In this document: positions 4,991 through 32,467 of the stretch, piece after piece
Layout of the letters: each line of letters begins with the position of its first letter
Numbering within the stretch: the stretch's first letter is position 1
Assembly: GCF_002943105.1 (NCBI RefSeq)
Contig: NZ_PTPZ01000001.1
Span: forward strand, 62,001-126,000
DNA: 64,000 nt
Direction: 5' to 3'
From: Cloacibacterium normanense
GTDB lineage: Bacteria; Bacteroidota; Bacteroidia; Flavobacteriales; Weeksellaceae
Made by a program: the position numbers and the translations under genes
Notes under the pieces: generated by a model
Told to the model about the DNA's origin: nothing
The model's input: only the letters and a program-made list of their open reading frames with translations
Database searches by the model: none

Positions 4991-6130
4991 TTAATTAAAA
5001 GCTTGTTCTATGTCTGCAATTAAATCTTCCACGTCTTCAATTCCGCAACTTAAACGCACCAAATCATCTGTAATGCCTAATTCTGCACGTTTTTCTGCAG
5101 GAATGGAAGCGTGAGTCATTAAAGCTGGATGGTTTGCCAAAGATTCTACACCGCCCAAACTTTCTGCTAAAGTGAACACTTTCAGATTTTCTAAAAATTT
5201 GATAGAATCTTCTTTTTTGCCCGATTTAAAGGTGAAAGAAATCATTCCGCCAAAAGTTTTCATTTGTTTTTTTGCCAATTCTAACTGAGGATTGCTCGCT
5301 AAATTAGGATAAAAGACTTTTTCAACTTTTGGATGATTTTGTAAATATTCAGCAATTTTTTGTCCGTTTTCAGAATGTCTTTGAACTCTTAAAGCCAAAG
5401 TTTTAATTCCTCTCAAAACCAAATAAGAGTCGTGAGGTCCTAAAATTCCTCCACTTGCAAATTGGATGAAGTGTAATTTTTCTCCTAATTCAGGAGTTTT
5501 GGCAATTAAAGCTCCTGCAATAACATCAGAATGTCCGCCCAAATATTTGGTAGCAGAATGCATCACAATATCTGCACCTAAATCTAAAGGCGTCTGAATA
5601 TAAGGTGTTGCGAAAGTATTATCAACTGCTAAAAGAATATCTTTTCCTTTGATGAGTTCTGCAACCTTTTGAATGTCAACTAATTTCATTAAAGGATTGG
5701 TAGGTGTTTCCAGCCAAACCAATTTCGTTTTTTCGTTGATGAGCGGAAGAATATTTTCAGGATTTTCAAGATTTACGAAGTGAAATTTGAGTTGATATTT
5801 CTCAAAAAGTCTGGTAAACATTCTGTAGCTTCCTCCGTATAAATCGTCTACAGCGATGATTTCGTCTCCTGGATTTAATAATTTCAAAACGCAATCTATT
5901 GCTGCTAAACCAGAACCAAAAGCCAAACCTCTAGCTCCGTTTTCTATAGATGCTAAAGCGTCTTCTAACGCTTGTCTAGTAGGATTTGCCGCTCTGGAAT
6001 ATTCGTAACCTGAATGTTCTCCTGGAGATTTTTGTGCAAAGGTAGAAGTGAGAAAAACAGGAACATTTACAGAACCTGTTACTTTTTCGTGGCTTTGATT
6101 GCCGTGTATTACTTTGGTATTGAATTTCAT
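4991..6130 (-). CDS. trans-sulfuration PLP enzyme (cystathionine gamma-synthase/lyase family)
   Basis: A 379-residue Cys/Met-metabolism PLP enzyme. Landmarks are YEYSRAANPTRQALE, GSGLAAIDCVLKLL, DNTFATPYIQTPLDLGAD, the PLP lysine in HSATKYLGGHSDVIAG, and SLGGVESLANHPALMTHASI. The sequence fits cystathionine gamma-synthase or gamma-lyase (methionine/cysteine interconversion); I cannot separate them from sequence alone. The ORF can be extended to 6172, but the extra residues (FAESRLLKAESKK) are read from an intergenic AGCAGAAAGC-type repeat, so I take the ATG at 6130 (MKFNTKVIHGNQ). Confidence 0.9.
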   Translation of the reverse strand: MKFNTKVIHGNQSHEKVTGSVNVPVFLTSTFAQKSPGEHSGYEYSRAANPTRQALEDALASIENGARGLAFGSGLAAIDCVLKLLNPGDEIIAVDDLYGGSYRMFTRLFEKYQLKFHFVNLENPENILPLINEKTKLVWLETPTNPLMKLVDIQKVAELIKGKDILLAVDNTFATPYIQTPLDLGADIVMHSATKYLGGHSDVIAGALIAKTPELGEKLHFIQFASGGILGPHDSYLVLRGIKTLALRVQRHSENGQKIAEYLQNHPKVEKVFYPNLASNPQLELAKKQMKTFGGMISFTFKSGKKEDSIKFLENLKVFTLAESLGGVESLANHPALMTHASIPAEKRAELGITDDLVRLSCGIEDVEDLIADIEQAFN

Positions 6131-6132
6131 TT

Positions 6133-6230
6133 TTTTGCTTTCTGCTTTCAGCAATCTGCTTTCGGCGAACAAAATGCTGTGTTTTTTTAAAATTTTGCTG
6201 ATTGCCGACTGCCGAAAGCCGACTGCAATT
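6133..6230. repeat. CTTTCTG/CTTTCGGC-type imperfect inverted repeat
   Basis: The left part reads GCTTTCTGCTTTCAGCAATC and continues TGCTTTCGGC. The right part reads GATTGCCGACTGCCGAAAGC followed by CGACTGCAA, which is largely complementary. It occupies the complete gap between the transsulfuration gene and gldC and makes the former's ORF look too long. Confidence 0.5.
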
Positions 6231-6554
6231 TTATTTTATCTTACTCATAAAAGCGAAATCTTCCGCAAATTCTTGAATTTTATTGGCTACATCATCTTCG
6301 CCAGTTGCTCTTTGATAAGTATGACCAAGAGAAACAAAAATCTGATGAAGGAACATTTTCATTTGATCTACAGGCATATCTTTAGTCCATAAATCGATGC
6401 GTAATGCTTCCATTGCTTTATCGTCCCAAACTGAAATCATAGTGGCTTTGGTTTCTTGATTTTCTACACCGCCATCTTGAGCATTCCAAGTCATTTTTTC
6501 TGGAACGTGATTTTCGTCTAATTCTACGTTGATTGTTATCTGTGTTTGTCTCAT
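6231..6554 (-). CDS. gldC: gliding motility protein GldC
   Basis: A 107-residue protein matching GldC in motif and length: MRQTQITINVELDENHVPEKM, then WNAQDGG and RIDLWTKDMPVDQMKMF. GldC works with the Gld/type IX secretion machinery in Flavobacteriia and helps maximal gliding; its biochemical role is not settled. The ORF can be extended to 6617, but those 21 residues (SELETRNSKLQ) are translated from a GAGTTCCGAGTTTCGAG repeat, so the ATG at 6554 is chosen. It lies directly downstream of gldB, in the order known from Flavobacterium johnsoniae. Confidence 0.9.
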   Translation of the reverse strand: MRQTQITINVELDENHVPEKMTWNAQDGGVENQETKATMISVWDDKAMEALRIDLWTKDMPVDQMKMFLHQIFVSLGHTYQRATGEDDVANKIQEFAEDFAFMSKIK

Positions 6555-7693: not shown

Positions 7694-8485
7694 ATGCAAT
7701 CAGAAAAAATAATTGAAAGAATAGTTTCTTGGCTGAAAGATTATGCCGAAAAAGCAGGTGTAAAAGGTTATGTAATCGGAGTTTCTGGTGGAGTAGATTC
7801 TGGTGTGGTTTCTACACTTTGTGCCATGACTGGATTGAAAGTTTTCGCTCTAGAAATGCCAATTCGTCAACAAAAAGATCAAGTTTCTCGTGCTTTAGAG
7901 CATATAGAATTTCTAAAAAATAAATTTCCAAATGTGGAAGTGTTTTCGGTAGACTTAAATGAACCTTTCGAAGCGTTGTACAAAACTTTTGATGTAAAAG
8001 ATGATGAATTTCCTGCCGAAAAATTGGCTTTTGCCAATACCAGAAGCAGATTGAGAATGCTAACTTTGTATTATTACGGACAAATCAATGGACTTCTCGT
8101 TTGTGGAACTGGCAATAAAGTGGAAGATTTCGGGATTGGTTTTTACACGAAATACGGAGATGGTGGAGTAGATGTTTCGCCGATTGCAGATTTGTACAAA
8201 ACCGAAGTTTATGCTTTGGCAAGAGCTTTAGATTTGCCAGAATCTATTAAAAATGCCATTCCAACTGATGGACTTTGGGATGTGGACAGAACAGATGAGC
8301 AACAAATTGGGGCAACGTATCCCGAATTAGAAAAAATCCAAAAAGAATGGGGAACAAAAACCGAAACTGATTATTCTGGAAGAGACTTAGAAGTTTATAA
8401 AATTTTCAGCAGAATGCACAAAGCTGCGCAACATAAAATGAATCCAATTCCGGTTTGTGATATTCCGGAAGAGTGGAGAGATTAA
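7694..8485 (+). CDS. nadE: NH3-dependent NAD(+) synthetase
   Basis: This enzyme amidates nicotinic acid adenine dinucleotide to NAD+ using ammonia and ATP. The 263-residue protein has only the synthetase domain, with no nitrilase-type glutaminase domain. The PP-loop is VIGVSGGVDSGVV near residues 27-39. Further motifs are ANTRSRLRMLTLYYYGQ, GTGNKVEDFGIGFYTKYGDGGVDVSPIADLYKTEVY, a family-typical stretch given here only as landmarks GTGNKVED and DLYKTEV. The gene diverges from gldB across 89 bases. Confidence 0.95.
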   Translation: MQSEKIIERIVSWLKDYAEKAGVKGYVIGVSGGVDSGVVSTLCAMTGLKVFALEMPIRQQKDQVSRALEHIEFLKNKFPNVEVFSVDLNEPFEALYKTFDVKDDEFPAEKLAFANTRSRLRMLTLYYYGQINGLLVCGTGNKVEDFGIGFYTKYGDGGVDVSPIADLYKTEVYALARALDLPESIKNAIPTDGLWDVDRTDEQQIGATYPELEKIQKEWGTKTETDYSGRDLEVYKIFSRMHKAAQHKMNPIPVCDIPEEWRD

Positions 8486-8566: not shown

Positions 8567-9100
8567 ATGAAATTACTCAAAACCAAAAATTTTACGCCTA
8601 TTGCTTTTCTGATTTTCTTTATGCCTTTTTTGAGAATGTGTAAAGAAAGAAGAGAAACTGTAGAAAATATTGACCATAATGCAAAAGGGCTATTTCAGAA
8701 AATTGAATATCAAAATGACGATTCTGGTTATATTAGAATTTATAAAGAAACTAATTTAAATGCATATCAATTAGGATTAGTTGTTTTAAAACAGAATTTT
8801 AATAATGAATTTTTAAACGACAAAGATTTTTTCTCAACTATTTCATATACTTTTATCATAATATTTTCAATTTTAATGATTGTTTTTTCTTGGTTAAGAA
8901 AGTTTTTGAAGGTTAGGAATTTGGCAGTTGCAAACATTATTTTACTTATAATTTCTACAATTTTGTTTGTGAAATCTGGGATTATAGATGGATTTGCAGA
9001 TGTTAAATACGGATTGTATGTTTTTCTGATATATTCAATATTCATTATTTATATTTCAAATAAAGAAAATTTAGAACTTAAAGAAAACTTGAAATCATAA
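8567..9100 (+). CDS. membrane protein, unknown
   Basis: A 177-residue protein with a first hydrophobic segment near residues 10-25 and three more near 103-120, 127-145 and 148-165, leaving a polar region of about 75 residues between the first and second. No family is recognised. Its stop is 11 bases before the start of the barnase-type ribonuclease, so it may be part of that operon, for example in export or immunity, but nothing in the sequence shows this. It begins about 80 bases after nadE with no evident terminator between. Confidence 0.6.
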   Translation: MKLLKTKNFTPIAFLIFFMPFLRMCKERRETVENIDHNAKGLFQKIEYQNDDSGYIRIYKETNLNAYQLGLVVLKQNFNNEFLNDKDFFSTISYTFIIIFSILMIVFSWLRKFLKVRNLAVANIILLIISTILFVKSGIIDGFADVKYGLYVFLIYSIFIIYISNKENLELKENLKS

Positions 9101-9111
9101 ATATCTAGTTT

Positions 9112-9693
9112 ATGCAAAGCAAAAAATCATTTTTTTATATTATCCTTGCTTTTGTTGCAGGATTGTTATTGATGTATCTTTTCAATAATTATAAGATTGA
9201 GAAGAAAAACAATACAGAAAATACAGAAATTACGTATCAGAAATCTGACAACCAGAATCAAAACAATTCTTATTCTTACGAAAATTCATCAAAGAAAAAT
9301 CAAGATGATTTTGAGGGAAGTAAATCTGATTTTTCTGATGATAACAATACTTCAAGCAATAATATTGATGAACTTACCAATGATGAATTGGTGGTAAAAT
9401 ATCTAAAAGAACACGGAGAATTACCAGATTATTACATCACGAAATCCGAAGCAAAATCTTTGGGTTGGGTTCTAAGCAAAGGAAATCTTTGCGAAGTTGC
9501 TCCTGGAAAAGCAATAGGTGGTGATATCTGGACAAACCGACAAAAATCGCTCCCAACAAAATCCGGTCGAAAATATTTCGAGGCAGACCTTAATTACAAT
9601 TGCGGCAATAGAAATGCAGATAGAGTAGTTTTTTCTAATGATGGTTTGGTTTTCGTAACGTTTGATCATTACAGAAGTTTCGAGGAAAAATAA
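9112..9693 (+). CDS. membrane-anchored or secreted barnase-family ribonuclease
   Basis: A 193-residue guanyl-specific ribonuclease of the barnase/N1 family. Residues 6-24 form one hydrophobic signal or anchor segment, followed by a long Asn/Ser/Lys-rich linker to about residue 85, then the catalytic domain. As I recall it, barnase aligns without gaps at an offset of 84: K27, D54, R59, E73, R83, R87, H102 and Y103 correspond to K111, D138, R143, E157, R167, R171, H186 and Y187, so the active site is complete. Unlike barnase it has two cysteines (C127, C164). The next gene encodes a barstar homologue. Extracellular or periplasmic location is inferred. Confidence 0.92.
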   Translation: MQSKKSFFYIILAFVAGLLLMYLFNNYKIEKKNNTENTEITYQKSDNQNQNNSYSYENSSKKNQDDFEGSKSDFSDDNNTSSNNIDELTNDELVVKYLKEHGELPDYYITKSEAKSLGWVLSKGNLCEVAPGKAIGGDIWTNRQKSLPTKSGRKYFEADLNYNCGNRNADRVVFSNDGLVFVTFDHYRSFEEK

Positions 9694-9756
9694 ATTTGCT
9701 GGAAGTTGAATGTTGGAAGCGAGATGTTTACTAACTTTGAAACTTGAAATAAAATT

Positions 9757-10041
9757 ATGGAAGTATATATAGATTTTTTAGAAATTGGTGATTACGAGGA
9801 TTTTTATGCTCAACTCAAAGAAAAATTGACTTTACCAGAGCATTTCGGGGATAATCTCGATGCGCTTTTTGATGTTATTACAGGCGAAATAGAAATACCG
9901 CTACATCTAGAGTTTGTCAATATGAGTGTAGAGCAATTAGAAATTTTCGAAGATTTACTCACTACTTTAGAAGATGCAGAAGATGAGGTAGAAGATTTTA
10001 CTTTTGCCTATTATCTAGAGCAATATGAAGATGAGGAATAA
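9757..10041 (+). CDS. barstar-family ribonuclease inhibitor
   Basis: A 94-residue acidic protein with the barstar signature LPEHFGDNLDALFDVITG at residues 26-43. It keeps the two aspartates that contact the barnase active site (D35 and D39, the same numbering as barstar), while barstar Y29 and W38 are H29 and F38 here. It has no signal peptide, so it should act in the cytoplasm, protecting the cell from the ribonuclease encoded 63 bases upstream. The unusually acidic C-terminus (many D/E after residue 65) may contribute to binding. A strong terminator follows. Confidence 0.9.
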   Translation: MEVYIDFLEIGDYEDFYAQLKEKLTLPEHFGDNLDALFDVITGEIEIPLHLEFVNMSVEQLEIFEDLLTTLEDAEDEVEDFTFAYYLEQYEDEE

Positions 10042-10068: not shown

Positions 10069-10108
10069 AAACTGCGCCCCGAAGAATTTCGGGGCGCGGT
10101 TATTTTTT
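10069..10108. terminator. bidirectional terminator between barstar gene and lipoprotein gene
   Basis: GC-rich hairpin GCGCCCCGAA / TTTCGGGGCGC followed by a T-run on the plus strand and with A/T-rich flanks on the other. It separates convergent genes. Confidence 0.85.
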
Positions 10109-23789: not shown

Positions 23790-26700
23790 ATGAGATTTAG
23801 ATGTCATTTTATATCTGTTATTACAATTTTGTTGTCTAGTATTGGTTTTTTTAAATCTCAGAATCAATCCGATTTTTATATATCAGACACTAGAAATGAA
23901 CAAAATGTTGTTATCGATTGTAATTATCCTTTCGTGAGCAATAATTGTGTTCTTTTGAAAGCTAATTACCCTTCTTTTAAGCTTACTAATAAATACGCTG
24001 TATCTTCTATTAATTATACACCATATTCAGTTACTAATAAAGTAGTTGTAAAAGATAATCTAGACGATTCTTTCTCAGGAATTATTAATTTACCATTTAA
24101 GTTTTGTTTTTATGGTCAAGCTTATAATAAGTTAGTAATAGGTTCTAATGGAATGATAAGTTTTGATATCAACCAAGCAAATCAAGCAAATGCACCTAAT
24201 ATATCTGAGGCTTTACCGAGTTCAAGTTTGCCCAAAGCTACAATTTTTGGAGTATTACACGATATGTATTTTTCTTTATCAGATGATTCGGAAATTAATT
24301 ATTCGGTAATTGGCAATGCGCCTTTTAGAAAATTTGTAATTAATTTTTATAAAGGGAGAATGTCTGGATGTGATGATTTAACATCTACTTCACAAATAGT
24401 ACTCTCAGAAGGAAGTAATAATATAGAGGTTTTCGTGGAAAATAAACCTCTTCCTTGTGAATTGGCACAGTTTAAAAACTCTCTTATAGGAATAAATGAT
24501 GAATTAGGAAATTCTGGAATGGCAGCTCCCAACAGAAATACTGGTTTATGGGAAGCCAAAAATGAAGCTTGGCTATTCAGTCCTGATGGAGAAAATGTAG
24601 TGCCTAATTTTTCTTGGTATGATGCAAATGGGAATTTAATTGGTACATCTAAAGACCAAATAGTTTGTCCTACAAAAGATACAAATTATAAATTAGATTT
24701 TATTTATTCCATATGTAATGGGGAAAGTTTTAATTTCACAGATGAGATTAATCTCAAGTTTTCTTCAGATTATCCTACTGTAGAAGAGTATATTAAAACG
24801 ATATGTAATAATAGAGTGAAAATTGTTTTATCAGACTATAAAGCATTTCTTACCACTAATGATATTTCAAAATTTAATTTTGAATTTATAGATGAAATAA
24901 CTAATGAAGTGTTAGATGAAAATACACCTTTTACGATTAATGTCTCTAAAGATATTAGAGTAATTATTTCGAATAAGGATAATAGTAATTGTAGTAGAAC
25001 TACCAATCTTTCTTTACAGTTTTTTCATCAAAACATTCTTACTACTCAGATTCCGGTTTGTGATTTATGGAATGATGGAAAAGAAAATGGCTATTTGTTA
25101 AGTAATTTAAATGAAAAATTAGTTCATACAAATTTTCAAGGCACAATTTCGTATTTTTTATCATATAAGAATGCGGTAGACAATATAGACTCTATTACAA
25201 CATATGATTTAACAAATGGAACACAGCTTTATGTAAGACTTTTAGAAAATAATTGTAGCAATGTTTTTGGTCCGATAAGTATTAATTTTACTTCCCCACC
25301 TCAGGTCATATCACCACTAGAACTTAAAGTAGAAATTTGTGATTTCAATAATGATGGAGTAGAAGATTTTGACTGGGCAAATTTTTTAAAAGATAAAGTC
25401 ACTACAGAGCAAGGAGTTACTATTCGAGTTTTTAATACATACGATGAGGCGCTGAATGCATCTTTAGACCAGTCAGGTCTTACTAAAATAGTAGAAGGAA
25501 AGTATAAAGTCTACGCCAGAGTAGAGTTTTCTGGTGGTTGTTTTTCAATTGCAGAAATCAATATGGACGTAGTTTTTGGAACAATAAAACTTAGAGAGGT
25601 AGATACTTATATTTGTTTTGATGGTATAGAAGATATAGAAGTAGATCTTTTGGACATTGCAAATAAAATGCTAATAAGTCCTTCCAGTAACATATCTGGG
25701 CCTTTCTTTTTTGCGAGTAATCAAGATGCGGTAGATAATTTGCCAGCAAATATGCTTTCTCCTAATCAGATTATTAAAGATGATGGAAATTTCATTCTTA
25801 AAACTTTTTATGTAAGATTTAATAATGGAGATAATTGTTATGTTATAAAGCCCATAAAAATTTATCTGGTTCATTTAGTGAAAAATAAAGATCAGTTTAA
25901 TGTTTGTGATTTTAAGAATGATAACTTGGAAACTGTTACTTTAAGTGCTTATGCAAGACTTGTCAATAATCAAAGTGGTTCAAAAGTTTTATATTTTAAT
26001 ACAGAAGCACAAGCGATAGCTAATGTCTCAGGAACAGATATTAAATCTCTTAATGTAACTTCTAGCCAAATGGTTTATGCAAGAATTACTATAAGAACTT
26101 GTTTACTTATCATACCTGTTACTTTTACCTTAGTGAAAACTCCAGATGTTCTTTATGAGTTAACAATAAACCTTAAAGACATTTGTGATAATAACGCAGA
26201 TGGAAAAGAAAATATAGATTTAAGTTCTTATGCCGCTGAAATAAATTTAAATAATGAATTGGTAGATTTTACTTATTACAAAACATACAATCCTCTAAAT
26301 AATACATTCTCTAATCCCTATTCTAATATTTCTAATATTGAAGTACAAGATGGAAGTATAGTTTATGTAAAAGTAAAATATAAAAATTCTGATTGTTTTT
26401 CAGTATCAAAAATTATTATCAATATAGATTATCTCCCTACGATAAAACTCTCTAAAACAGTTACTTTAAAAGCTTGTGATGATGATTTTAATTTTGGAGA
26501 ATATTTTGATTTAACAGAATCTACCCCTCAATTATATAACCAAAACTTAAACTTTATTCCTCTATCAGACCTTATTATTTCTTATTATGAAAGTGAAGAT
26601 GATGCAAATGTAGGAACAACGGTAGGCAAAATAAATTCTTTATATCATATCCATACTGCAAATGCTTTTGTTTATGTACGATTTCAATCAAAAACCTACG

Positions 26701-28031
26701 GTTGCTATTCTGTGGCTCCAATTAATTTATTATCTTACTTCCCTACAAAAGCAAAAAATTCTGTCATTTCTATTTGTGATAATAACTTGGATGGGTATTA
26801 TGATGTGAATCTTCTAAATTATAAGGCTTCTATGGTTCAAAATCCAGATGTAAATAATGTATATAAATTTTATTTAAGTACTGAGGATATCCGTATTCCA
26901 GGAAAGGAAATAAAAAATCCTGAAAATTTTGTGCTCAATCCTTACATTTCTAAAATTTGGGTTTATATAGAAAATTTAACTAATTGTGGAAGCATTGCAG
27001 AAATAAATTTTAAAAAAGGAAATGTTTTGACTTTAAGTCAAAACCAATTCTCTATCGATAATATTTGTGATACAAGTAATGATAAAAAGGAGCAAATAAA
27101 TCTCACAATTTTTGAAAATAATTTTAGTTCTTCATATACCTACGAATATTTTGAGAAAAACAGTGATATGTGGCAGAATCAGAATAAAATACTAAATCCC
27201 ACCGCCTATTCTTTTGATGAAACTAAAGGCATTTCTACATTCTTTGTAAAAGTTTCTCAAGATGGTCTTTGCCCGAGTTTTTATACCATAAATGTTCATT
27301 TAAATAAAACACCTATTATTAGCTTACCAGACTATTACTATTGTAAAAATGATTTAGTAGGATTAAAAATAAAACCAGATTTTTCAGGGTTAAATACTAT
27401 TTATTATTTTTGGAAGTTTCCAGATGGAACAATAGTAGAAGGGGCTGATAAAAATTATCTTACAGGATTAAAAACAGTAGGAACTTATACCTTAACATTA
27501 ACCAATTCTTCAAATTGTACCTATACTACAAGTTTTAAAATACTCAATATAGATACACCAGAAATCATATCATTAACAGGACAAGATGATTATTACATTA
27601 TAAAAGCCGAAGGAACTTCGGGAAGAAAAATTGTTTACTCCAAGGATTTAATTAACTGGCAAGACAGTAATATCTTTTATAACTTAAAAGCAGGGGAATA
27701 TAATTTCTATGTAAAATATGCAGACTCTGATTGTTATAGCGATGTGAGAAAAGGTAAAATTTTTACATTCCAAAACACTCTTACTCCAAATGGAGATGGC
27801 ATAAATGATTATTGGGTGCTCACAGGATTAGATGTGTTTAATGATAATTCTACTTTACAAGTGTTTGATAAGTTTGGAAACTTAGTATATCAGCAAGTGA
27901 CTAATAAAGAGTTTAAATGGGATGGCAAGATGCAATCAAGAAGTTTAAATACGGATGCGTATTGGTTTGTCATCACAGCAGGAGATCAGAGGGTTTATAA
28001 AGGATGGATTCTCCTCAAAAATAGAAATTAA
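23790..28031 (+). CDS. large surface protein with T9SS type B (CHU_C) sorting domain
   Basis: A 1,413-residue exported protein. A signal peptide (ISVITILLSSIGFFKSQ) is followed by an N-terminal domain of about 280 residues. From about residue 424 to 1,180 there are eight tandem units spaced 92-100 residues, each opening with a Cys-Asp turn such as CDFNNDGVEDF, CDNNADGKENIDL or CDNNLDGYYDVNL. The C-terminal 85 residues (LTPNGDGINDYWVLTGLDVF, FDKFGNLVYQQ, KWDGK, TDAYWF, KGWILLKN) form the gliding-motility-associated type B sorting domain used for type IX secretion. Adhesin or matrix roles are usual for the class; no ligand is visible. A paralogue follows in tandem. Confidence 0.9.
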   Translation: MRFRCHFISVITILLSSIGFFKSQNQSDFYISDTRNEQNVVIDCNYPFVSNNCVLLKANYPSFKLTNKYAVSSINYTPYSVTNKVVVKDNLDDSFSGIINLPFKFCFYGQAYNKLVIGSNGMISFDINQANQANAPNISEALPSSSLPKATIFGVLHDMYFSLSDDSEINYSVIGNAPFRKFVINFYKGRMSGCDDLTSTSQIVLSEGSNNIEVFVENKPLPCELAQFKNSLIGINDELGNSGMAAPNRNTGLWEAKNEAWLFSPDGENVVPNFSWYDANGNLIGTSKDQIVCPTKDTNYKLDFIYSICNGESFNFTDEINLKFSSDYPTVEEYIKTICNNRVKIVLSDYKAFLTTNDISKFNFEFIDEITNEVLDENTPFTINVSKDIRVIISNKDNSNCSRTTNLSLQFFHQNILTTQIPVCDLWNDGKENGYLLSNLNEKLVHTNFQGTISYFLSYKNAVDNIDSITTYDLTNGTQLYVRLLENNCSNVFGPISINFTSPPQVISPLELKVEICDFNNDGVEDFDWANFLKDKVTTEQGVTIRVFNTYDEALNASLDQSGLTKIVEGKYKVYARVEFSGGCFSIAEINMDVVFGTIKLREVDTYICFDGIEDIEVDLLDIANKMLISPSSNISGPFFFASNQDAVDNLPANMLSPNQIIKDDGNFILKTFYVRFNNGDNCYVIKPIKIYLVHLVKNKDQFNVCDFKNDNLETVTLSAYARLVNNQSGSKVLYFNTEAQAIANVSGTDIKSLNVTSSQMVYARITIRTCLLIIPVTFTLVKTPDVLYELTINLKDICDNNADGKENIDLSSYAAEINLNNELVDFTYYKTYNPLNNTFSNPYSNISNIEVQDGSIVYVKVKYKNSDCFSVSKIIINIDYLPTIKLSKTVTLKACDDDFNFGEYFDLTESTPQLYNQNLNFIPLSDLIISYYESEDDANVGTTVGKINSLYHIHTANAFVYVRFQSKTYGCYSVAPINLLSYFPTKAKNSVISICDNNLDGYYDVNLLNYKASMVQNPDVNNVYKFYLSTEDIRIPGKEIKNPENFVLNPYISKIWVYIENLTNCGSIAEINFKKGNVLTLSQNQFSIDNICDTSNDKKEQINLTIFENNFSSSYTYEYFEKNSDMWQNQNKILNPTAYSFDETKGISTFFVKVSQDGLCPSFYTINVHLNKTPIISLPDYYYCKNDLVGLKIKPDFSGLNTIYYFWKFPDGTIVEGADKNYLTGLKTVGTYTLTLTNSSNCTYTTSFKILNIDTPEIISLTGQDDYYIIKAEGTSGRKIVYSKDLINWQDSNIFYNLKAGEYNFYVKYADSDCYSDVRKGKIFTFQNTLTPNGDGINDYWVLTGLDVFNDNSTLQVFDKFGNLVYQQVTNKEFKWDGKMQSRSLNTDAYWFVITAGDQRVYKGWILLKNRN

Positions 28032-28184
28032 AATGTTTTTAACAAATTTAGGTTTGATATTATCTGAAGTTTTTTTTGTTAATATTTTAATTTTTAATCA
28101 CTTAATGATAACTATCAACTTAAAATGATAGATACTTAATAAAGAATTTCTGTTATTAATGAAAAATTAACATAAGTTAATTTT

Positions 28185-28218
28185 TTTGTATTCTTTCGGC
28201 TAAAATTCGCTAATTTTG
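28185..28218 (+). promoter_or_regulatory. promoter of the second giant surface-protein gene
   Basis: TTTG at 28185-28188, a 22-base spacer and TAATTTTG at 28211-28218; the ATG is at 28237. The broken gene thus keeps an intact promoter of its own. The rest of the 205-base gap is AT-rich with a TTAATTTTTAATCACTTAA tract and nothing else recognised. Confidence 0.55.
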
Positions 28219-28236
28219 CCCCGAAAATAGGTCGTC

Positions 28237-31200
28237 ATGAAATCTAAAAAAAACTATAGCCTTTTACTTGCCTTTTTTGTAATTTCTTTTAATCTTTTTA
28301 AATCCCAGACTACTTCAGATTTTTTTATTTCCGATGCTAAAAATGAAAAGGAAGTTTTAATAAATTGTAACTATCCACTAATTAACGGCAATTGTGTGGC
28401 GCTTAGCGCTAATTACCCTTCTTTTAAGCAAACAGATAATTATAGTGTATCATCTATTAATTATACTCCTTACTCTGTAGTTAATAAAACTATATTAGCA
28501 GGCGATCTAGATGATTCTTTCTCGGGAATAATTGATTTGCCATTTAAATTTTGTTTTTATGGTCAGACTTATACCCAATTAGTAATCGGTTCTAATGGAA
28601 TGATAAGTTTTGATACTTATCAAGCTTATCAAGCTAATGGCGCCAATTTTTCTGCTCCTTTACCTAATTAAAATTTACCTAAAGAATCTGTTTTTGGAGT
28701 CTTACATGATATGTTTTTTTCTCAAGCAAATGGTTCTGAAATTAACTATGCTGTAATTGGATCAGCTCCTTTTAGAAAATTTGTAGTTAATTTTAAAAAT
28801 GGTAGAATTTCTGGTTGTGATTCAGAGACTTCAACCTCACAAATTGTTTTATCCGAGGGAAGTAATAATATTGAAATTTTTGTAGAAAATAAAGCCCTTG
28901 CATGTGATCTTACAAAATTTAAAAATGCAGTTATAGGGATTAATGATGCTACAGGAGATTTAGGAATGGCTGCGCCCGGAAGAAATACAGGGATTTGGTC
29001 TGCACAAAATGAGGCTTGGCTATTTAGCCCAAATGCTGATTCTTTAACGCCAGATATTATTTGGTATTATAGTAATGGTAATATTATAGGAACGAATAAA
29101 AATCTGACGGTTTGTCCTACCAAAAATGAAACATATAAAGTAGATATCATTTACACCAATTGTAATAATGAAAAAATAATCTATTCTGATAACATAAATG
29201 TTAATTTTTCTGCAGATTATCCTCTTGTGAAAGATTACAGTAAAATATTTTGTAATAGTAATGAGCAAGTAATTTTGGCAGATTATAAAAGCTCTATTGT
29301 GACAGGGGATATTTCTTTTTTTAACTTCGAGTTTAAGGATGCAGTAACCAACCAAATTCTAAATGAAACTACACCATTTACAATATCGTCTAATCGAAAT
29401 ATTAAAGTTACAGTTTCTAATAAGAATGAGGCTAATTGTAAAAAAGTAGCTAATCTATCGTTTCTTTCTCAGAATATTTACAATTACCAGCCAGTAATAT
29501 GTGATATTGCTAATGATGGAGTAGAAAACAATTTTTTATTAAGTAATTTAAATTCACAATTAGTAGGAACAAATTATCAAGGAACAGTTTCTTATTTCAC
29601 ATCTTATAATAATGCTGCCAATAATCAAAATGTAATTACAAATTATAATTTAACTAATGGAACCCAGTTCTATATAAGACTTATTCAAGGGGAATGTGTA
29701 AATGTTTTAGGACCAATAGAAATTAGATTTAACTCAGCTCCTATTGTAACTAATGCTTCACTAGATGTTGAAATGTGTGACAATAATGATGATGGAGTAG
29801 AAAATTTTAATTGGGCAGAAAACTTAAAAAATAATTTAACTACAGAACCAGGAATGTCTATAAGAGTTTTTAATTCTTATCAAGAGGCATTCACTGCGTT
29901 ACCTAATCAGTTAGGACTTACTCAAATTAAGGAAGGAAATTATAGGGTGTATGCTAGAGTACAAAGTAATTCTGGCTGTTTCTCAATTGCCGAGGTTAGT
30001 ATGAATGTCTCTTTTAAGTCAATTGAGGCAGTAGAAACTGTAGATTATATATGTTTTGATGGTACAGCGGATATAACAATAAATCTAACGGATTATTATA
30101 ATGACATGTTAAAAAATCCTTCTGGAGAAAATGTTACTTTTTTTTGGAAGCTTTAGTTATGCACAAAGTAATTTACCATCTAGAGAGATTAATTCTATTC
30201 AGCTAATAACCGATGATGGTGATTATATTACCAAGAATTATTATGCAAGGTTTAGCAATGGAGATTGTTATACTATAAAAAGAATAAGAATAGTTCTTGT
30301 AAAACTAACTGTAAATAAAGATAAATTTGAGATCTGTGATTCTGGAAATGATGGTTTAGAAAAAATTACATTAAGCAAGTATACTCGTGATGTCAATAGT
30401 CAAAGTGGAACTAAAGTTTTATTTTATAGCACGCACTTAGAAGCAGATAATAACGCAACATCTTTCTTAAGAGTAATTGATCTTACTTCGAGTTCTACAG
30501 TGTATGCTAGAATAAGTCTGTCAGATTGTGTAAAAGTAGTCCCTATTACTTTCACTTTAGTATCTACTCCAAATATTGTTGCCGAAATTGAAAAAGAATT
30601 TCCCATTTATTGTGACAATAATGCTGATGGAAAGGAAAATATAGACCTCACAGAATTAGATGCTCAAATTAATGTAAATAATGAACAAGTAGAGTTTTCT
30701 TATTTTAAAAGCTATAATATCCAAAACGCCACCTTTTCAGATCCATATTTAGACCCTCTAAATGCAGAAGTTCAAGATGGAGATATCCTTTATGTGAAAG
30801 TTAAATATAAAAACTCCGATTGTTTTTCTGTAGCAAAAGTTAAAGTAAGAATTAAGGTCATTAATTACTTAATAAATCTATCTCCAAACGCCATTTTAAA
30901 AATATGTAACGAAGATTTTACTGCCAGCGAAACCTTCAATCTAGAAGAGGTGGTTTCTCAAATATTTGACCAAGGAAAGAATGAGATTCCGTTCTCAGAT
31001 TTTGATATTACTTATTACGTAAACGAAAATTTTGCAAATCAAGGAACTTCGGCAGGGAAAATTTCTGCGCCTAACTCTTATATATCTTCCGCTGCCAATG
31101 CTTATGTTTATGCCAGATTCCAATCAAAATCATACGGATGTTATTCCGTAGCTCCAATTAATTTATTATTTGTCCTTCCGCCTAAAACTATAAATTCAGA

Positions 31201-32467
31201 AATTACTATTTGTGACAATAATTTAGACGAAAAGTATGATGTAAATCTGCTTGCATATAAAGATAGTATGGTTCAATATCCTAATGAGGACAATAAATTT
31301 AAATTTTATAAAGAATTTGCCGATATTAATGTTGCTGGAAAAGAAATTACAAACCCAGAAAATTTTATAGTCGAGGCTAATATTTCTAAAATTTGGGTAT
31401 ATGTAGAAAATTTACCTAATTGTGGAAGCTCAGCAGAAATTATATTCAAAAGAGGAAATGCTTTAAATCTTGATAAAAAACATTTTAATTTACATAACAT
31501 TTGTGATACAAATAATGACAAAAAAGAACAAATAGACCTCACCATTTTTGAGAATAATTTTAGCTCATCTTTTACTTATGAATATTTTGATAAACAGTCT
31601 GATTTATGGCTAGATCAAAATAAAATTCAGAATCCAAGAGCCCATATTTTTGATGAAACTACCGGAAATTCTATTATATATGTGAAAGTTTTTCAGGAAG
31701 GTTTCTGTCCAGATTTTTATACCATAGACCTTAAGCTAAATGAAGTTCCAATTGTAAAAATAGAAGATCAGTATTATTGCAAAAATGATATAGTAGGTAT
31801 AGATATAGTACCAGATGTTTCTGGATTAAATGTTGTATACTATAGTTGGAAACTTCCAGATGGAACGATGATAGAAGGAGCAGACAAAAAAGATTTAACA
31901 AATATTAAAACCTTAGGTACTTATGTTTTAACACTAACCAATTCTTCTAATTGTACCTATACTACAAGTTTTAAAATAATTAATAAAGACACTCCCAAAA
32001 TTATATCTTTAACAGGTAAAAATGATTATTACACCATAAAAGCTGAGGGAATACCCGGAAGAAAAATTGTTTATTCTTTAGATTTAATTCATTGGCAAGA
32101 CAGTAATGTATTCTACAATTTAAAGGTAGGTGAATATACTTTTTACGTAAAATATGCTGATTCAGATTGTTATGGTGATTCGATTAAAGGTAAGATTTTT
32201 ATTTTGCAAAACGCGTTTACACCAAATGGCGATGGAATTAATGATTATTGGGTGCTATCTGGGTTAGATGTTTTCAACAATAATTCTACCTTGCAGATTT
32301 TTGATAAATACGGGAATATGGTTTACAAACAGATAAGTAATACAGAATTTAAATGGGACGGAAAAGCAAATTCTAGAGTATTAAATTCAGATGCTTATTG
32401 GTTTGTTTTAACAGCTGGAGACGAGAGAATTTATAAAGGATGGATTTATCTTAAGAATAAAAATTAA
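28237..32467 (+). pseudogene. tandem paralogue of the large surface protein, broken by a stop and a frameshift
   Basis: Read as one gene this encodes about 1,409 residues, collinear with the intact paralogue upstream: the same signal peptide region, N-terminal domain, eight Cys-Asp units (CDIANDGVENNF, CDNNDDGVENFNW, CDSGNDGLEKITL, CDNNADGKENIDL and others) and CHU_C tail (FTPNGDGINDYWVLSGLDVF). Two lesions break it. An in-frame TAA at 28669-28671 falls where the paralogue has Ser (PLPN-stop-NLPK against ALPSSSLPK). A T8 run at 30138-30145 shifts the frame; seven T would restore it. Without both corrections the product ends after 144 residues. It may be decaying, or one or both lesions may be sequencing errors. 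Confidence 0.88.

Follow-up and report, generated by a model that had tools for sequence, protein, structure and literature searches.

Barnase is a classic model of protein folding, catalysis and protein recognition, studied mainly as the free, cysteine-less enzyme that Bacillus secretes freely. A gene pair coding for a barnase-type ribonuclease (RNase) and a barstar-type inhibitor is found in the Gram-negative bacterium Cloacibacterium normanense, on the 64,000-nucleotide stretch of DNA analysed here (referred to as the window). What does such a pair do in this organism, and on which side of the membrane does the nuclease act? The original prediction described an anchored nuclease, perhaps displayed or released, with an immunity protein in the cytoplasm, and considered both nutrient scavenging and contact-dependent competition as its role. 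Simple barnase-barstar pairs are described as widely distributed, the range given including the Bacteroidetes (PMC3482391). Such pairs are therefore already known. The natural cysteine pair, the predicted membrane tether and the embedded archaemetzincin reported below are apparently new, as no description of them appeared among the papers listed in searches of the open-access PMC literature. The papers listed that bring barnase together with archaemetzincins, with Chryseobacterium or with membrane anchoring in Gram-negative bacteria are, respectively, a protein-expression review judged irrelevant, a paper on a secretion assay and one on Tse1/Tsi1.

The account that is probably correct is that of an RNase tethered to the inner membrane and facing the periplasm, accompanied by a cytoplasmic barstar. 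It would be a conserved RNase, and its locus was probably once a three-gene operon (RNase, lipoprotein archaemetzincin, barstar) whose middle gene was lost in the lineage of the window. The parts of this account are of decreasing firmness, from homology and catalytic residues, through export with the N-terminus inside and then the disulfide, to the scavenging role.

The nuclease, the inhibitor and their conserved residues

All features of the locus lie on the forward strand. The nadE gene (7694..8485), coding for NAD+ synthase (Pfam PF02540, E 1.4e-50), is the conserved upstream neighbour. It is followed by an optional neighbour, a hydrophobic ORF of 177 residues (8567..9100) located between nadE and the RNase gene. 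This ORF has no Pfam or NCBIfam match at E 0.001 and has homologues in six other loci from four other genomes. The RNase ORF (9112-9693, 193 residues) and the barstar ORF (9757..10041, 94 residues, no signal sequence) come next. A hairpin resembling an intrinsic terminator, with a 14-pair stem, a loop of 4 and a T-rich tail, lies 3' of barstar (10070..10101); sites of this type number five between 7500 and 10200, against 0.9 expected. The RNase and barstar have one match each in the 2.84 Mb genome.

The RNase matches Pfam PF00545 (E 9.5e-13, 49 bits for a cut-off of 24) and the inhibitor matches PF01337 (E 8.9e-18, 64.5 bits for a cut-off of 23.4). Solved barnases in the PDB match RNase residues 93-191 with a best E of 5e-39 and the PDB barstar matches the inhibitor with E 5e-10, values that exclude a chance resemblance. 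None of the eight active-site residues K27, D54, R59, E73, R83, R87, H102 and Y103 is missing, and each lies 84 positions after its barnase number in a gap-free alignment, as the original prediction had stated. Pfam matches, PDB matches and residue columns agree on a barnase/barstar pair with an intact active site. The barnase domain occupies residues 85-193 (9364..9690). In the AlphaFold2 model, whose alignment input had 51 rows, pLDDT is at least 90 for 120 of the 193 residues and the blocks of the domain score 83-98. The barnase structures among those listed by Foldseek superpose on the model at 0.8-1.4 Å rmsd. The pair thus shares with the barnase/barstar of Bacillus amyloliquefaciens (1A2P, 1BRS) the fold, the eight active-site residues, barstar D35 and D39 and the adjoining inhibitor. 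It differs by a predicted membrane tether, a linker of 58-67 residues, cysteines at positions 43 and 80, and the changes F56W and E60Q on the nuclease side, and by H29, F38, E44 and the lack of cysteine on the inhibitor side.

Conservation was measured over 155 distinct RNases, for which identical C-terminal ends of 130 residues were collapsed and five loci dropped (L001, L002, L098, L099, L130). The 80 named loci of the sample are the best 80 of 578 confirmed candidates, and the sample from outside the family leans to the window's type; by record title it includes Chitinophagales, Bacteroidales, Pantoea, Morganella and Leminorella. The locus is also present in the congeneric C. rupense, where the RNase shares 88% identity with that of the window. 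E73, R83 and R87 are found in 155/155 RNases, D54 in 154, R59 in 153 and K27 in 152, the three others having R. H102 and Y103 are found in 154, one copy being truncated.

Two further changes, F56W and E60Q (window 9529-9543), were absent from the original prediction. Both are uncommon in the RNase set (7/155 and 10/155, respectively). W56 and Q60 are common to six of the seven same-genus RNases, the seventh (L038) having neither, and six of the seven sequences with this combination belong to the window's genus. The two positions belong to the loop that reads guanine, and the activity or specificity of the window RNase may be altered. A covariation of F56W/E60Q with barstar H29/F38 was considered and rejected: all six loci that combine the four residues are in the window's genus and represent one event at most.

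In the barstar, D35 and D39 are kept as predicted, and H29 and F38 were also confirmed. D39 is invariant among 149 barstars and D35 is present in 146. At position 29 they have Y in 63 cases and H in 50, and at position 38 Y in 51, S in 44, F in 22 and W in just 20. The changes Y29H and W38F, formerly taken as the sign of a shifted interface, are therefore ordinary variation of the family.

Predicted membrane anchor, linker and cysteine pair

An N-terminal anchor followed by a long linker was rightly noticed in the original prediction. Residues 1-26 of the RNase (9112..9189) are hydrophobic and predicted to form an uncleaved transmembrane anchor, with a helix at residues 4-26 in the AlphaFold2 model. 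Residues 27-84 (9190..9363) would constitute a disordered, Asn/Ser-rich tether of low pLDDT (block means of 44-49 for residues 31-80). The linker measures 58 residues (27-84) or 67 residues (25-91) depending on the domain start chosen. By the 67-residue measure it is the fifth longest of 149 RNases, and its Asn and Ser content is 39% for a median of 24%. A single NCBIfam match of the protein, at 22.7 bits for a cut-off of 300, spans this linker. The RNase domain is the sole Pfam match, and no delivery domain or repeat was found in the protein with Pfam and NCBIfam.

A hydrophobic N-terminal segment is present in 154 of the 155 RNases. The net positive charge is higher on its N-terminal side in 115 of these 154, equal in 34 and reversed in 5, and this bias of 115 against 5 favours an N-in topology. 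Five lipoprotein-type paralogues (L004, L006, L011, L096, L097) point to the same topology. They carry a lipobox, FTGC or TIGC, followed by SNDDS or SHDDS, and the NDDS or HDDS after CS resembles the surface-export signal of Bacteroidetes lipoproteins (PMC5080379). No barstar is encoded in the locus stretch of these five RNases; their genomes contain another RNase match and encode a barstar at a different place. The five lipid-anchored paralogues could be candidates for surface-displayed RNases. For the window RNase, the surface display once envisaged is unlikely given an N-terminal inner-membrane helix. The combination of a predicted exported enzyme with an inhibitor devoid of export signal agrees with the original prediction.

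The sole cysteines of the window RNase, Cys127 and Cys164, correspond to barnase positions 43 and 80. Cysteine is found at both positions in every one of the 155 distinct RNases, which were gathered among Gram-negative relatives, and also in a Proteus copy. Among the few Gram-positive copies compared, those of Acetoanaerobium and Aerococcus have W43/G80 and Bacillus barnase has A43/S80. The best PDB sequence match of the RNase is 1BNE, entitled 'Barnase A43C/S80C disulfide mutant', and the title of 6PQK names the same A43C/S80C pair. The window model superposes on these engineered proteins at 0.9 Å and 1.0 Å, respectively. What is shared with them is the location of the two cysteines, which in the RNases gathered here occur naturally and without exception and whose disulfide is predicted. 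The added cysteines had been read as another sign of a shifted interface, a reading that their invariance and their location at an engineered disulfide site do not support. They likely form a disulfide with a structural role, suited to an enzyme exported into the oxidising periplasm. The Gram-negative natural copies thus bear the pair introduced by protein engineers together with a tether, making stability, folding and inhibition directly comparable.

In the proposed mechanism, the N-terminal helix would insert with its short N-terminus inside. The barnase domain would fold outside on its flexible linker, the Cys43-Cys80 disulfide locking the fold, and barstar would neutralise the RNase copies folding inside. 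The reverse arrangement, a toxin-antitoxin pair whose RNase domain faces the cytoplasm and is held there by barstar, could explain that positive residues flank the window helix on both sides and that barstar has no export signal. It is very improbable in view of the N-in bias throughout the family, the lipoprotein paralogues and the invariance of a cysteine pair whose disulfide a reducing cytoplasm would disfavour.

The archaemetzincin gene between nuclease and inhibitor

A gene coding for an archaemetzincin (peptidase family M54) lies between the RNase and barstar genes in 38 of the 155 loci, and this holds for every locus of the set with an M54 gene; two of the 38 copies were placed there by coordinates, the ORFs overlapping. 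The three copies tested match PF07998 with E 3e-8 to 9e-8, and the match to a PDB archaemetzincin has E 1e-13. The HEXXHXXGXXHC and CXXC motif columns are invariant in the 15 copies aligned, and the gene product agrees with the published M54 consensus HEXXHXXGXXHCX4CXM...CXXC (PMC3427221). In all 15, a hydrophobic start is followed by an invariant Cys with Ser before it in nearly every copy, which corresponds to a lipobox. The product is thus a predicted lipoprotein archaemetzincin. It resembles the archaemetzincin AmzA (PDB 2X7M, 3ZVS) by the PF07998 match and the two motifs, and differs from it in being a predicted lipoprotein encoded between an RNase and a barstar.

No M54 match was found in the window genome at E 0.001; a single-sequence search gave a best E of 0.0086, for an N-terminal stretch only. 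The RNase and barstar genes are separated there by a spacer of 63 bp (9694..9756), and the spacer is 62-63 bp long in the window, L034, L036 and L037. L035, with an RNase domain sharing 98% identity with that of the window, has the M54 gene in this place. The 5' part of the window spacer resembles the RNase-M54 spacer of L035 and its 3' part resembles the M54-barstar spacer of L035. The window locus probably lacks M54 through a deletion at this site, the alternative being an insertion in its relatives. Two observations favour deletion: M54 occupies this slot in each of the two nadE groups of the genus as well as in other genera, and some copies are decaying, M54 being truncated or interrupted in four of the 38 loci (L020, L033, L073, L210). 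The spacer was not retained as a proof of deletion, as an M54 insertion would look the same. By its nadE, L035 is placed among species devoid of M54, so that repeated loss, regain by recombination and insertion are all possible. The presence of M54 is patchy, with 19 changes on the nadE tree (96 loci) for a mean of 25.7 in 100 shuffles (range 21-30), such counts being unable to tell gain from loss. The nadE tree was preferred to a poorly resolved RNase-domain tree, which had 11 of its 144 inner branches starred and 26 changes of M54 state with no shuffle control.

Other genes were observed in the same slot. In three loci of genus g9 (L093, L094, L095), a set of 5-7 kb resembling, by eye, a TolC/HlyD/ABC-2 efflux operon separates RNase and barstar, and in L093 it is interrupted by a transposase-like gene (also by eye). 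Four loci have in the slot a complete or partial small gene resembling a GIY-YIG endonuclease, alongside M54 in L071 and without M54 in L028, L079 and L080; the L071 copy was the one tested with Pfam. Next to M54 in seven class loci without the RNase (L100-L106, the next best of 30 after L099), no common partner was seen by eye.

Two readings of the middle gene, both compatible with the tethered-RNase core of the preferred account, can be weighed against each other. The slot may simply be permissive, with M54 as one passenger among several and functionally unrelated to the RNase. This has a sizeable chance of being right, somewhat below even, as it accounts for the GIY-YIG and efflux-like genes found in the slot of other species, for the patchy presence and for the broken copies. 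Alternatively, the three genes may form a release module in which the M54 lipoprotein releases the RNase by cleaving its tether; the window would then carry a protease-less form whose RNase stays tethered or is released by another protease. This second reading is unlikely, although the association is close. In 20 of the 38 loci there is a 4-nt overlap between the M54 stop and the barstar ATG; the two lie within -4 to +4 nt of each other in 30, and M54 overlaps the RNase end in 16. M54 is matched at E <=1e-30 in 98 family genomes, of which 85 have a listed RNase position, and M54 is at most 700 bp from it in 83 of these 85 (the exceptions being G071 and G022); in G035, outside these 85, M54 is also located between RNase and barstar. 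The 4-nt overlap and this proximity would probably exceed what is expected of a random passenger. Over 30 loci in which M54, nadE and barstar are nearly complete, M54 distances have a Mantel correlation of 0.76 with those of RNase, 0.67 with barstar and 0.59 with nadE, higher for RNase than the 0.47 between RNase and barstar. M54 and RNase both carry predicted export signals, and metallopeptidases have been proposed to release polymorphic toxins (PMC3482391).

Several observations nevertheless count against a release function. The 117 RNase loci devoid of M54 have the same kind of anchor and linker; the length and charge of the linker do not differ between the 38 RNases with M54 and 111 without (p 0.20, 0.40 and 0.25), only its polar content giving an uncorrected p of 0.02. 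In the class sample, 31 of the 32 M54-positive genomes (among 237) have no RNase match. Co-divergence is expected of linked genes anyway, and M54 changes faster than its neighbours: between L035 and L033 its identity is 71%, for 95% in the RNase domain and 98% in barstar. Finally, the same slot is filled by other genes. The full version of the proposal, a tethered-RNase/releasing-protease/inhibitor operon in which M54 frees barnase outside the cytoplasm and protease-less lineages keep their RNase permanently tethered, is a little more doubtful still. The substrates of archaemetzincins are described as poorly known (PMC3427221). The presence of one in the operon of these relatives offers a substrate hypothesis for M54 and, if true, a release operon would give bacterial archaemetzincins a natural substrate.

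Distribution, selection and the role of the pair

A family profile detects the RNase in 259 of the 296 family genomes; barstar is matched in 264 of them. The Pfam PF00545 model alone detects the RNase in only 146 genomes, which gave the impression of many orphan inhibitors. This was dismissed, as 17 of 20 fetched loci thought to be RNase-less have an RNase no more than 2 kb from barstar, and the three exceptions (L085, L087, L088) have an RNase match elsewhere in the same genomes. Cells carrying the inhibitor gene alone, for which the original prediction suggested a search, do exist, in six of 264 genomes by eye (G002, G055, G087, G105, G124, G127), and are not widespread. One family genome (G096, by eye) has the RNase alone. 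In the class sample, the RNase profile matches 2 of 237 genomes, both of the window's family. Outside the family, the RNase is rare rather than absent, with scattered copies in other Bacteroidota. A barstar is encoded in the locus of 149 of the 155 distinct RNases. A nadE homologue is present in 99 of the 155 loci, always on the same strand (99/99), 0-1500 bp upstream of the RNase gene in 95 and slightly overlapping the RNase ORF in 4. Between the window and five same-genus RNases (L038 left out), dN/dS is 0.01-0.065 for the RNase domain and 0.045-0.092 for barstar; both are under strong purifying selection in these five pairs. In the two same-genus pairs of equal length, dN/dS of the linker is 0.26 and 0.30.

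The locus L038, of the same genus, departs from this pattern. It is nearest to C. rupense (L033), with 98% identity in nadE, 96% in barstar and 84% in M54. The domain of its RNase (5709-6269 in that locus) shares only 60% identity with the L033 domain and 75% with the domain of L041, from another genus. Compared to the window, the identity is 61% in the RNase domain, 93% in nadE and 91% in barstar. This divergent barnase domain is preceded by an anchor and a linker typical of the genus. The catalytic domain of L038 appears to have been exchanged and the inhibitor retained. This may be the main sign of toxin-like behaviour or ordinary recombination, with a chimeric assembly as an alternative. 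Together with the nadE placement of L035, it makes the tethered-RNase account slightly weaker and slightly raises the case for competition.

A contact-dependent or secreted antibacterial toxin with its immunity protein is improbable on balance. The RNase gene precedes the inhibitor gene, and simple barnase-barstar pairs are discussed as an incipient toxin-immunity order (PMC3482391). The L038 domain appears to have been swapped behind a genus-type anchor and linker with barstar and nadE kept, as toxin tips are, and the five lipid-anchored paralogues, which have no barstar beside them, could be exposed at the surface. The Tox-Barnase/Imm-Barstar polymorphic toxins of that survey have in common with the window the RNase domain, the immunity family and the toxin-then-immunity order; a metallopeptidase is listed with some of them (PMC3482391), and L038 provides one apparent domain exchange. 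By contrast, the window has no delivery module or repeats, a single copy and no immunity array, and the M54 of its relatives is a separate lipoprotein rather than a PVC metallopeptidase domain. The near-universal presence in the family, the frequent synteny with nadE, the purifying selection in the five pairs measured and the scarcity of inhibitor-only genomes also speak against a toxin. The contact-dependent competition suggested in the original prediction is therefore not favoured, with L038 counting the other way.

Near-universality in the family and frequent nadE synteny fit a conserved periplasmic RNase better. The tethered RNase might break down RNA that is present in the environment or released by lysed cells, allowing nucleotide and phosphate use. 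This scavenging role is suggested by conservation, the neighbouring genes not naming a role. The family distribution suggests that barnase and barstar can be part of ordinary physiology and not of weaponry alone.

A search of phages gave no match, and a plasmid collection gave four records. Elsewhere in the window, two tandem and related sets of large ORFs, alike by eye in their starts and ends, occupy 23790-32467. The first set is a single ORF of 1413 residues. The second consists of three ORFs in different frames (28237-28671, 28711-30156 and 30131-32467) and is either broken or mis-assembled.
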